Below, piece after piece: positions 30,369 through 60,640 of a DNA stretch of 64,000 nucleotides. The translations under genes and the position numbers were made by a program. The notes beneath the pieces are model-generated. The model saw nothing but the letters and a program-made list of their open reading frames with translations, did not search any database and had not been told where the DNA came from. Source of the stretch: Planktothricoides sp. SR001. GTDB lineage: Bacteria; Cyanobacteriota; Cyanobacteriia; Cyanobacteriales; Laspinemataceae. The stretch covers positions 45,228-109,227 of the forward strand of contig NZ_LIUQ01000007.1 in assembly GCF_001276715.1 (NCBI RefSeq). Direction: 5' to 3'. Numbering within the stretch: the stretch's first letter is position 1; the number at the start of each line of letters is the position of its first letter.

Positions 30369-30400
30369 AAAAAAAAAGGACACGGCGAAAGCCCGTGTCC
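30369..30400 (-). terminator. Intrinsic terminator reading minus strand (for glmU)
   Basis: GGACACGG (30378-30385) pairs with CCGTGTCC (30393-30400), and on the minus strand the stem is followed by nine T (30369-30377). Orientation therefore fits transcripts coming from glmU at 30801, although about 400 bp of repeats intervene. On the plus strand, for iaaA, the T-run is missing. Confidence 0.75.
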
Positions 30401-30435
30401 TTACAGTCAAAGAATCCCTACCCAACAATCAACAA

Positions 30436-30655
30436 CCAACAGGGAACAGGGAACAGGGAACAGGGAACAGAGAACAGTGGTGCAGGGGTGCAGGGGTGCG
30501 GCTGTAGGGGCGATCCCCCCGAGGTCGCTCCGGAGCGGGGGTGCGGGGGAGCCGCAAATCGAGCCGCCAATCGAGCCGCCAATCGAGCCGCCAATCGAGC
30601 CGCCAATCGAGCAGAGGAGAGAGTGAATAGTGAATAGTGAATAGTGAATAGTGAT
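30436..30655. repeat. Mosaic of tandem repeats
   Basis: Successive blocks: GGGAACA units (30441-30478), GCAGGGGTGCAGGGGTGCGG (about 30482), five copies of the 12-bp GCCGCCAATCGA (about 30550-30612), and GTGAATA heptamers (30622-30653). AACAACC-type DNA follows at 30755-30800. No gene in 30401-30800 is credible. Confidence 0.85.
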
Positions 30656-30800: not shown

Positions 30801-32225
30801 CTAATCTTTTTTTAAGGGTTGCCAATTCGCGATCGATGCTTGACGGGAGCGAGCGATCGCCAAAGCGTTATCCTCCACATCTTTGGTAATGGTCGATCCT
30901 GCGGCTACGGTGACATTTTCTCCCAGGGTGACAGGGGCCACCAGCACGCTATTTGCCCCGGTTTTACTGCCGTCACCGATAATGGTTTGATGTTTATTCA
31001 CCCCGTCATAGTTGGCAGTAATGGTTCCCGCACCGATATTCACTCGTTCGCCCAAGGTGGCATCTCCCAGGTAAGAAAGATGGGCTACATTGGTGCGATC
31101 GCCCACGGTACTCTTTTTAATCTCCACAAAATTACCGACCCGGCAACCTTGACCAATTTTCGCCTTACCCCGCAAATGGGCATAAGGTCCAACAATGCTG
31201 TCCGCAGCTACTTGGCTATCGGTGATGACCGAATACAAAACCCGGACATTTTCACCAATTTCACTATTTTCAATGAGACTCCCAGGCCCGATCCTCGCCC
31301 CAGAACGAATCACCGTATGACCCCGGAGGTGGGTTTGAGGTTCAATAATTACATCGCGATCGAATTGCACCGTATCATCAATGGTGATACTGTTCGGATC
31401 GACCAGGGTGACACCGGCTCGCATCCAACGATCTTTGAGGCGTTCTTGTAAAATGCTGTAAGCGTTCGCCAACTGTTTGCGGTCATTAATCCCCAAAATT
31501 TCCTGATAATCGGCCACATCTACCGCCATCACTGGAGCCAGAAAATTCACCGCATCGGTTAAATAATATTCTTGCTGGTCATTGTTCGCCTTTAAATCTG
31601 GCAAAACCTTGGCCAAAGCAGGCCAATTAAAGCAATAAACCCCCGCATTAATCCGGCGATTTTGCTTTTGTTCCGGGGTGCAGTCTCGGTCTTCAACGAT
31701 TTGTTGCAGGAAATTATCGCGATCGCAAAATACCCGGCCATATCCTTTGGGGTCTGGCAACTGTGCGGTCAACAGCGTGGCCGCATTTTTATGGGTAGTG
31801 TGAGTTTCCAGCAGCATTTTAATGGTTTCTGGTTGCAACAACGGCACGTCCCCATTCAAAACCAGTAAATCTCCCTCAAATCCTTGCAAGTGGGGAAGTA
31901 GTTGCTGGATGGCATGACCTGTCCCGAGTTGCTCGGTTTGTTGCACAAATGTTAAGGGAGGTAGTTGTCCCGACTGCTGCTGCCGGGAAAATCTCGCTTC
32001 ACAAACCGCTTGAACCAATTCTCCTTTATATCCCACTATGACAAAACAATGGGATGGCTCAATGTCCGAGGGCTTGGGGGATAATGCTTGCGGGCGCAAG
32101 CATTGCGCCCCTACTTCTAACACTCTTTCTATGAGCGATCGCCCTCCCAACTGATGTAAAACTTTGGGCAGATCAGACTTCATGCGTGTCCCGCGTCCAG
32201 CCGCTAAAATTGCTACTGCTACCAT
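30801..32225 (-). CDS. glmU: Bifunctional UDP-GlcNAc pyrophosphorylase / GlcN-1-P acetyltransferase
   Basis: GlmU acetylates glucosamine 1-phosphate and then uridylates it to UDP-GlcNAc, the precursor of peptidoglycan and polysaccharides. The uridylyltransferase signature [18 protein letters not shown] is at the N terminus. The left-handed beta-helix acetyltransferase domain fills the C-terminal half ([31 protein letters not shown]). At 474 residues it is about 20 longer than usual. The excess is at residues ~38-57 ([11 protein letters not shown]), read from a palindromic GTAGGGGCG-type element at 32083-32114. The insert lies between LIERVLEV and FVIVGY, a surface loop in known structures, so function may be kept. 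Confidence 0.96.
32083..32114. repeat. Palindromic element inserted in frame in glmU
   Basis: GGGCGCAAGCATTGCGCCC followed by CTAC is a perfect hairpin, and AATGCTTGCG upstream can pair alternatively with CGCAAGCATT. The same word is intergenic at about 60391-60413 and 60441-60457. Confidence 0.8.
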
Positions 32226-32279: not shown

Positions 32280-32388
32280 GATTGTTATTCGTTATTTGTT
32301 GTTTGTTGTTTGTTATTATTTATTGTTTATTAGTTATTGGTTATTATTTGAAGAGGAGAAACAACAAACAACAAACAACAAACAACTA
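32280..32388. repeat. TTGTTGTTTGTTATT and inverted AACAACAAAC repeats
   Basis: Low-complexity DNA in both orientations upstream of glmU and directly at the 3' end of the HD-GYP gene; the two halves can pair. No gene is visible. Confidence 0.75.
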
Positions 32389-32389
32389 T

Positions 32390-33382
32390 TTAACTCGCTA
32401 AGGAGTGAATTTCTGCACTCACTTGGAACATAAAATCTCTGAACTGTTGCATCAGTTTAGGATTTCGCCAACCTTTATCGGTTTCCTCCTGCATAATTTC
32501 CAAAGCGGTTTGGGGAGAGAACGCTTTTTTATACGGTCGTTCACTGGTTAAGGCATCGTAAATATCAATAATTTGAAAGACTTGAGCTAAATAGGGAATT
32601 TCATCACCGATTAAACCATCGGGATAACCACTTCCATCCCAGCGTTCATGGTGGTGGCGAATAATGGGAATCACCCCTCGCATTGTTCGCAGAGGTTTAC
32701 AAATTTTTTCCCCAATAATCACGTGCTGTCGCATAATCACCCATTCTTCCTCTGTGAGGCGACCTGTTTTCAGCAGCACTGAATCAGGAATCCCCACTTT
32801 GCCAATATCGTGGAGATAACCGCCCCACATTAAATCCCGAATTTGGTTGCGGGGCAAACCCAGATATTCCCCAAATTCTTGCCCTCGTTCTACCAGCCTT
32901 TCGCAATGGTCGCCGGTATTCGGATCGCGGCTTTCTACGGTTTTGGCAATGGAAAATAGGACTTTCTCCGCATGGTCGAGGTCTTCGTTTAGCCGTTTCT
33001 GTCGAATTAGGGATTTGACTCTGGCAGAAAGTTCTAAATGGTCAAAGGGTTTGGTGAGAAAATCGTCTCCTCCCGCTTCGATCCCTCGGATGCGCGATCG
33101 CCGGTCATTGAGGGCGGTGACAAATACAATCGGAATTAACCGAGTTCCTTCGCTTTGTTTTAAGTGGCGACAGACCTCAAATCCGTCCATTCCCGGCATC
33201 ATTACATCCAGTAAAATTAAATCTGGATTGGTTTCTTTGACCTGTGCCAAGGCGGCAGGGCCACTGTCTGCTTCTAGAATTTCATAGCCTTCCACAGACA
33301 ATAAAGCCATTGCGGTCATCCGGCTGGCTGGATGATCGTCTACCACTAGAATTTTAGATCGTTCTGTCTCAAGAAAGTTCAC
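32390..33382 (-). CDS. Response regulator with HD-GYP phosphodiesterase domain
   Basis: 330 residues. The N-terminal receiver domain (~10-125) has the acidic pair VVDDH, the phosphoacceptor aspartate in LILLDVMMPGMDG and the lysine in FLTKPFDH. The C-terminal domain (~140-315) has HD-GYP signatures: GDHCERL, YLHDIGKVGIPDSVL, HHERWDGSGYPDGL. Such domains hydrolyse cyclic di-GMP or related dinucleotides. The metal-binding HD is present and the GYP motif is intact. The start is GTG at 33382 (NFLETERSK follows), with AAGGTG about 8 bases upstream. The partner kinase is not adjacent. Confidence 0.94.
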   Translation of the reverse strand: MNFLETERSKILVVDDHPASRMTAMALLSVEGYEILEADSGPAALAQVKETNPDLILLDVMMPGMDGFEVCRHLKQSEGTRLIPIVFVTALNDRRSRIRGIEAGGDDFLTKPFDHLELSARVKSLIRQKRLNEDLDHAEKVLFSIAKTVESRDPNTGDHCERLVERGQEFGEYLGLPRNQIRDLMWGGYLHDIGKVGIPDSVLLKTGRLTEEEWVIMRQHVIIGEKICKPLRTMRGVIPIIRHHHERWDGSGYPDGLIGDEIPYLAQVFQIIDIYDALTSERPYKKAFSPQTALEIMQEETDKGWRNPKLMQQFRDFMFQVSAEIHSLAS

Positions 33383-37570: not shown

Positions 37571-38635
37571 ATGAATAGGGTCAATATTTTAAACTTGCCA
37601 ATTGATAATTTATCGATAGTGGAGTTATTGGAAAATTTGAAACATGGCGGTATGGTAGTAACTCCCAATGTAGATCATATCATTAAGTGGCAAAAAGATC
37701 GAGAATTTTATCAGATTTATCAAGAGGCAGACTATCGCACTTGTGATAGTCAAATTCTGATTTTTATTTCGCGGTTAATTAATCGACTCCTGAAAGAACG
37801 AGTGTCTGGGTCAGATTTATTTCCTAGATTTTATGACTATTATAAAGATGATGAAACCATGACCATATTTCTTTTGGGCGGTGGTCCGGGAGTGCCAGAA
37901 ACCGCTCAAGAAAAGATTAATCGCAAAGTGGGTCGCCAAATGGTCATTGCAGCGCATTCACCCTCTTATGGCTTTGAAAAAAATGAGGCGGAATGCGAAA
38001 AAATTATCGAGATGATTAATGAATCAGGGGCTACGGTTTTGGCGGTGGGTGTGGGCGCACCAAAACAAGAAAAATGGATCTATAAATATAAAGATCGGTT
38101 TAAGCATATTAAGGTGTTCTTGGCGATCGGGGCGACGATTGATTTTGAAGCCGGGTATGTTCAGCGATCGCCTGCTTGGATGAGTAATTTAGGGATTGAG
38201 TGGATTCATCGATTACTTTCAGACCCCAAACGGCTTTGGAAACGATATTTGATTGAAGATATCCCGTTTCTTTGGTTGATTATTAAGGAACAATTGGGTC
38301 TGTATCGCAACCCATTTGAAATTGGTGAATATTTCGGGGAATTAGTAGTTAGTAGGGGTCCAATGCTTGCGCCCCTAGGGTGGGCAAGTATTTGCCCACC
38401 CTACCACTCAGGGTGGGAAGCGATCGCGATAAAAACCTGTAGGGGCAAAGCATTCGGGCGATTAATTTTGGGTAAAAACGGAGAATGTATTACCCGAATG
38501 CTTTGCCCTGGCTTTGGGGTTGGTGGGTTTGTTAATACCAAGTTAGTAGGGTGGGCAAGTATTTGCCCACCCTACCACTGCCGGAATGCAAAGGGCGAAG
38601 CATTCCGGGATAAAATCTCTGCTTTTAAGCCATAA
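37571..38635 (+). CDS. WecG/TagA/CpsF family glycosyltransferase, repeat-extended C terminus
   Basis: The conserved part (residues ~1-258) is a GT26-type enzyme that adds ManNAc-type sugars to lipid-linked intermediates of surface polysaccharides: NILNLPIDNLSIVELLENL, VTPNVDHIIKWQKD, TIFLLGGGPGVPETAQEKIN, and VGVGAPKQEKWIYKYK. The typical end is around GLYRNPFEIGEYF. Residues ~261-354 instead translate palindromic repeats (GWASICPPYH occurs twice), so the original stop seems lost. The tail is probably unstructured. The ATG sits five bases after a perfect 34-bp palindrome. The neighbouring CDP-alcohol phosphatidyltransferase is divergent. Confidence 0.88.
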   Translation: MNRVNILNLPIDNLSIVELLENLKHGGMVVTPNVDHIIKWQKDREFYQIYQEADYRTCDSQILIFISRLINRLLKERVSGSDLFPRFYDYYKDDETMTIFLLGGGPGVPETAQEKINRKVGRQMVIAAHSPSYGFEKNEAECEKIIEMINESGATVLAVGVGAPKQEKWIYKYKDRFKHIKVFLAIGATIDFEAGYVQRSPAWMSNLGIEWIHRLLSDPKRLWKRYLIEDIPFLWLIIKEQLGLYRNPFEIGEYFGELVVSRGPMLAPLGWASICPPYHSGWEAIAIKTCRGKAFGRLILGKNGECITRMLCPGFGVGGFVNTKLVGWASICPPYHCRNAKGEAFRDKISAFKP

Positions 38636-60268: not shown

Positions 60269-60640
60269 TAGTAGGGTGAGCAATGCCCACCATGACCTGA
60301 CTTATTTTAGATAGTAGGGTGGGCAATGCCCACCATGATCTTTAATTTTATCATATAGTCATTTGAATTGTGGTTGACATAAAACATCAGGGGCGCAAGC
60401 ATTGCGCCCCTACAATATACGTTTATTTTCTGTAGGGGCGCAATGCTTGCGCCCCGGTATAATTTTATCAATCTTGAAAACTTGAAATAACTATACCAAA
60501 TAAGGTTGCCATAGTAATCTTAAGTTGGGTCCACCGTCCAAGAAACCCAACGGACAAATTTAGAATAGATGCGCTACTACTATTTTAAAGCGGACTACAG
60601 CTTGTTCACGAGTAGGGGCGAATGGCCATTCGCCCCTACT
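60269..60640. repeat. Palindromic elements upstream of the ArnT-like gene
   Basis: Two near-copies of GTAGGGTG(A/G)GCAATGCCCA (about 60270 and 60315), two facing GGGGCGCAAGCATTGCGCCC units (about 60390-60412 and 60437-60456) and a perfect palindrome at 60612-60639 (GTAGGGGCGAATGG...CCATTCGCCCCTAC). The 60245-60795 gap has no gene. Confidence 0.85.

Follow-up and report, generated by a model that had tools for sequence, protein, structure and literature searches.

How does an essential gene come to carry a palindrome within its reading frame, and with what consequence? The glmU gene, which encodes a cell-wall enzyme and is essential in bacteria, lies in Planktothricoides sp. SR001 on the 64,000-nucleotide stretch of DNA analysed here (the window), and an earlier note had placed a palindrome in it at 32083-32114. 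The palindrome is located there, within a full insert that spans 32076-32114. Very probably, a GTAG-tagged repetitive extragenic palindrome (REP) with a truncated inverted partner was inserted in glmU after the split from the sister species (G001), was likely moved by a REP-associated tyrosine transposase (RAYT), and is tolerated. The features concerned are the following.

30801-32225, minus strand: glmU, 474 aa, bifunctional UDP-GlcNAc diphosphorylase / GlcN-1-P acetyltransferase
32076-32114, minus strand: in-frame insert of 39 bp, GTAGGGGCGCAATGCTTGCGCCC followed by GCAAGCATTATCCCCC, giving 13 residues (38-50); G001 is shorter by 39 bp
32092-32114, minus strand: perfect GTAG-tagged REP unit with unpaired GTAG, 8-bp stem GGGCGCAA/TTGCGCCC and 3-nt loop TGC
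32076-32091, minus strand: 3′ extension GCAAGCATTATCCCCC, a truncated inverted half-REP, from which a longer nested hairpin results
38353-38374, plus strand: degenerate REP with 2 mismatches, close to the 3′ terminus of an open frame of 365 aa; it reads SRGPMLAP, in another frame
60391-60454, no strand assigned: intergenic tail-to-tail REP pair inside a MITE-like inverted-repeat context

The insert lies between the codons for E37 and K51 and makes up 13 codons, without a stop in the reading frame used. Its first part is a perfect copy of the dispersed repeat GTAGGGGCGCAATGCTTGCGCCC, a 23-bp unit. The earlier note had estimated the excess at about 20 residues and traced it to the hairpin word that is intergenic at 60391; the excess is real, but the insert accounts for 13 residues, and while the exact word GGGCGCAATGCTTGCGCCC is indeed present at both places, the glmU copy adds the 3′ extension. 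In the window this word occurs exactly at 32092 and in the inverted pair at 60391/60436, and with up to 3 mismatches it gives 8 matches at 5 places (shuffled sequences average 0.01), a count in which a near-palindrome may score once per strand.

Judged from its sequence, the glmU repeat is a GTAG-tagged REP. Such elements carry an unpaired GTAG at one end of a stem-loop of 20-40 bp, and the stem of 8 bp and loop of 3 nt read from the glmU copy conform to this; they are also dispersed, of high copy number and mostly extragenic, and here the 19-base core of GTAGGGGCGCAATGCTTGCGCCC has 54 exact copies in the window's own genome (G000; 0 for the reversed control), with 5 of 86 copies within genes. 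A REPIN joins two inverted REPs in one hairpin, and the glmU copy has a complete REP plus an inverted half that is truncated. With its 39 bp, the insert falls outside the MITEs (70-300 bp, terminal inverted repeats, often a target duplication), and visual comparison of the glmU junctions with G001 showed no target duplication.

The family is well represented in this genome and in some of its relatives. A search of G000 with TAGGGGCGCAATGCTTGCGCCC and up to 3 mismatches gave 103 strand-matches, in which near-palindromic places may count twice, and the stretches covered contain 86 distinct copies with at most 2 mismatches, 51 of them exact. Seventy of the 86 start with GTAG; 57 stand alone, 22 are arranged tail-to-tail and 7 head-to-head, and by simple motif rules one MITE-like context accounts for 27 and a second for 16, leaving 43 outside both. 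The element around the 60391/60436 pair (window 60300-60480) has outer sequences of the AATTGAAAT.ACTAT type, which recur around 27 of the 86 copies in G000. Among 59 genomes, own included, the exact 20-base word is present in 13, with 52 occurrences in G000, 115 in G001, 230 in G006, 211 in G007 and 105 in G012, and at most 22 in each of G005, G008-G011, G018, G038 and G039. After some copies, as at L019 (contig C29 of G000) and L384 (C56 of G001), the 3′ half of the REP has expanded in tandem, e.g. as repeated ACAATGCTTGCGCCC, which suggests slippage at the REP hairpins.

The sister species G001 lacks the 39 bp at the glmU site. Where G000 has the insert between GTGTTAGAA and AAGCCCTCGGAC, G001 reads GTGTTACTTAGTATTTCGGAC, a difference of 39 bp; as the codons flanking the junction also differ between the two genomes, the breakpoint is sure only to within a few bases. 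From this comparison the insertion is fairly recent, younger than the G001 split. In an alignment of the N-terminal region, the 13 residues are missing in 49 of 49 other GlmUs, namely that of G001 (L032) and 48 further loci (L033-L080; the window is L031), all or nearly all cyanobacterial and some possibly from the same or near-identical species. Going by record titles, L061-L080 are all cyanobacterial apart from L067; this is a MAG with the title Tatlockia, and its GlmU aligns with those of the cyanobacteria. GlmU matches were found in 59 genomes (own included), of which 30 were looked at for the insert site and 29 left out. This was the check, set beforehand, for the earlier note's view that the residues are an insertion and not an old loop, and that view is borne out: being absent from G001 and from 48 of 48 further GlmUs, the residues are no old loop in the genomes inspected. 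A chance resemblance between the repeat and an old GlmU loop could draw on the neighbouring loop (residues 71-89), which is old length variation, but it would also have to account for the perfect 23-bp repeat unit in the DNA, and we give it practically no credence. This second length excess is common to G001 and to L037 and L040 of another family, in whose genomes (G044 and G013) there is no exact copy of the repeat word, and it is unrelated to the REP insert.

Nor do we see much room for an assembly or sequencing artefact. Repeats can misassemble and G000 is a draft of 165 contigs, but the frame is intact, a usual read is longer than the 39 bp, and similar in-frame inserts are found in several genes and in a second species, all of which makes an error very improbable. 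The hairpin could instead have been selected, for tuning the translation or stability of the glmU mRNA or for a functional loop. For the strand with the hairpin, the folding energy across 81 nt is -25.2 kcal/mol (z -1.85); however, 12 of 200 shuffles fold as well or better, and the element is dispersed in unrelated places and genes, so that selection for the hairpin is an improbable origin, if a little less so than an artefact. A stronger contender, although still unlikely, is a history in two steps, with a plain 23-bp REP first and its 16-bp 3′ extension added later, when replication switched template at the hairpin and the frame was restored. The extension corresponds to a portion of the left half of this REP, inverted, and the tandem half-REP expansions at other copies suggest hairpin slippage. 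Against this, a TPR-like gene of G001 carries VGAQYLRPQALPP, which has 36 of the 39 bases of the glmU form in an unrelated gene and points to a shared, pre-formed 39-bp variant. We retain the insertion of the REP together with its truncated partner as the best explanation.

Among 12 genomes, the 37 bases of the fused form with at most 3 mismatches were found only in glmU of G000 and in the TPR-like gene of G001; the TPR-like gene of G000 has a version 15 bp shorter, in frame too. The two 39-bp copies are both intragenic and share a reading frame, VGAQ[C/Y]LRPQAL[S/P]P. It is conceivable, though rather doubtful, that the 39-bp variant is a coding-compatible form of the REP which persists because it passes for a peptide insert, and not as intergenic DNA; a length that is a multiple of three, a stop-free frame in the gene-borne copies and the location of both in genes would fit this reading.

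Other copies in G000 are also read in frame, in four genes: those for a Glyco_hydro_57 (GH57) protein, a TPR-like protein (called from a Pfam TPR_12 match that scores under the cut-off), a UvrD-like helicase and a trypsin-like protein. According to alignments with relatives, the copies in these genes sit in length-variable stretches, and the same-strand copies in glmU, GH57 and TPR all read VG[A/G]QCLR. In the trypsin-like gene (L153 2030-2060, contig C102), the GTAG of a REP provides the TAG stop, and another copy lies inside the gene. The degenerate REP at 38353-38374 may extend or alter the C-terminus of the 365-aa frame. The count of 5 intragenic copies among 86 was made by reading G000 frames of at least 150 aa, and several long frames that look spurious were left uncounted (L009, L019, L029, L030, L160, L170, L174 and L178); the in-gene candidates of G001 besides TPR (L328, L378, L384, L395 and L396) were judged by eye, and some look spurious. 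With a coding fraction of about 0.75 in the window, about 65 of the 86 would be expected within genes, compared with the 5 seen (6 of 86 in that calculation). Intragenic copies thus appear strongly selected against, which is indicative only as the ORF thresholds of the two estimates differ.

Comparison of the flanks in G000 and G001, run for 98 copies, yielded 31 rows, and many of these rows are cross-matches between MITEs. It shows G001 without the copy at glmU and GH57 only, in a comparison where most G001 stretches had been chosen for holding a copy, so that most empty sites are invisible. At GH57, G001 has 23 unrelated bases in place of 29 bases with the REP in G000, and this site is thus a replacement and not a clean insertion. 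Both species carry a copy at the TPR, L016 and L181 sites, and these insertions are most likely older than the split.

What has the insert done to the enzyme? The identity of GlmU is clear (757.8 bits for the NCBIfam equivalog GlmU, cut-off 602; Pfam NTP_transf_3 and Hexapep domains). G000 has a single full-length GlmU match, the other two being partial and 32-34% identical, and the reading frame is intact with the conserved columns kept despite the insert. Between G000 and G001, dN is 0.032 and dS 0.255 over the aligned codons, and the resulting dN/dS of 0.13 describes the whole divergence of the two and not solely the period after the insertion. The AlphaFold model, built with 36 sequences, predicts a normal GlmU (mean pLDDT 92.9), with TM-scores by query length of 0.88 against Streptococcus pneumoniae GlmU (1g97) and 0.86 against E. 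coli GlmU (1hv9). In this model, residues 38-41 of the insert form the end of a helix (31-41), and residues 45-53, ahead of a strand at 57-64, have a pLDDT below 50, which is no proof of disorder; the insert is predicted to be mostly a disordered loop. In the uridyltransferase domain the insert separates a helix from a strand, so that the enzyme would still fold and work. With one full-length glmU in the genome and a dN/dS of 0.13, the insert is most likely tolerated, as the earlier note had supposed, through indirect support to which the intact frame and columns and the predicted loop also contribute. It would then be a selfish passenger, presumably without effect on the enzyme.

The second issue is how the element reached glmU. 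The movement of REP elements of this kind is ascribed to a Y1 (HUH) RAYT transposase that acts on them in single-stranded form, and the 39-bp REP with its truncated inverted partner would have entered the window's lineage in this way after the split from G001, between the E37 and K51 codons. In both G006 and G007, an open frame of 211 aa that encodes a Y1 transposase adjoins tandem arrays of two repeat versions, GTAGGGGCGCAATGCTTGCGCCC and GTAGGGGCGTATTGCATACGCCC, which differ by two compensatory stem changes around a common TGC loop. Among the 59 genomes the RAYTs closest to the G006 query are those of G006 (100%), G007 (97%) and G009 (73%), all three flanked by arrays of the REP family; the next best is at 53%. 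The domain scan covered the G006 protein, leaving out those of G009 and G000 (C5, C82), and gave 31.3 bits for Pfam Y1_Tnp (cut-off 23) and 65.7 bits for NCBIfam REP_Tyr_transpos, under its cut-off of 80. Several other RAYTs of the G006 type adjoin different GTAGGGG palindromes.

The distribution of this RAYT speaks against a simple account. Five genomes contain over 50 exact copies, and of these only G006 and G007 have a close RAYT; in G009, which has the 73% RAYT with arrays at its flanks, exact copies number only 5. In G001 (115 exact copies) there is no match of the G006 type at E <= 0.001, its three Y1_Tnp matches being of other kinds, and in G012 (105 exact copies, genome 87% complete) there is only a partial match of about 50%. 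G000 has no close RAYT of the G006 type, which membership among the GTAG-tagged REPs does not require; identity reaches 44-45% in its best matches, of which that at C5 adjoins a different palindrome (GTAGGGGCGAACGGCCGTTCGCCCCTAC). We rejected as cognate the six Pfam RAYT-like genes of G000 (L141-L146): L142 and L143 are flanked by GAAACCGGGTTTC and L145 by GTAGGGTGGGCAATGCCCACCCTAC, L141 and L144 have no copy of the glmU REP family nearby, and L146 is a second fragment beside L144. The window has the GTAGGGTGGGCAATGCCCACCCTAC core as well, near 60315. In the window's genus, the mover may have been lost, may lie in a gap of the draft, or may be a different RAYT. We infer RAYT-catalysed movement of the glmU copy.

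Very small mobile repeats have reportedly been described in cyanobacteria before, as the small dispersed repeats of Nostoc (Elhai and colleagues, 2008), and the glmU REP resembles them by description only, being very small, mobile and cyanobacterial.

The closest known elements are the GTAG-tagged REPs, for which linkage to RAYTs and intragenic copies in several species, maybe neutral in loops or linkers, have been described (Di Nocera et al. 2013, PMC3733652). The likeness extends to the unpaired GTAG, the short stem-loop, dispersal, inverted pairs, the RAYT link and some intragenic copies; its cyanobacterial families are GTAG-12, -15 and -16, and the glmU repeat is likened to them by features, not by sequence. 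It also mentions that REPtrons may be lost. We found no glmU case in the part of that paper covered, the supplementary gene list being outside its scope. REPINs, which include those of Nostoc punctiforme, likewise pair a REP with an inverted REP in a RAYT-linked hairpin (Bertels and Rainey 2011, PMC3116915), but in glmU the partner is truncated and fused without a spacer. The palindromic elements of Rickettsia are, according to PMC10969869 and PMC3733652, mobile palindromic repeats translated in frame in unrelated genes, as in glmU; they differ in coming from Rickettsia, in their size of about 150 bp and in lying chiefly inside genes, and are likened here by description only. RPE-4 and RPE-6, intragenic REPs of R. 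conorii, are of the CGTC type and not GTAG (PMC3733652).

Intragenic GTAG REPs were known already (PMC3733652), and resemble the Rickettsia elements. Among the matches listed, titles and abstract beginnings revealed no published insertion of a palindromic element in a cyanobacterial glmU, and an intragenic cyanobacterial REP may already be in print in supplementary tables, which lay outside this literature scope. The new elements are the cyanobacterial glmU example with its empty site in G001, and the fused 39-bp variant, both of whose copies found in 12 genomes are intragenic and in frame. G000 and G001 thus form a before-and-after pair for the conversion of a mobile hairpin into a 13-residue insert of an essential enzyme, with a REP family tied to its likely transposase in relatives, and indicate in cyanobacteria too a route to new protein loops like that of the Rickettsia elements.

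Two further repeats border glmU. Downstream of the gene, window 30395-30640 holds a tandem repeat of the CGAGCCGCCAAT type, absent from the G001 flank over the 400 bases aligned. In the interval from glmU to the gene that follows, at 32280-32395, heptamer-like repeats TTGTTGTTTG and AACAACAAACAAC are densely packed in an inverted arrangement.
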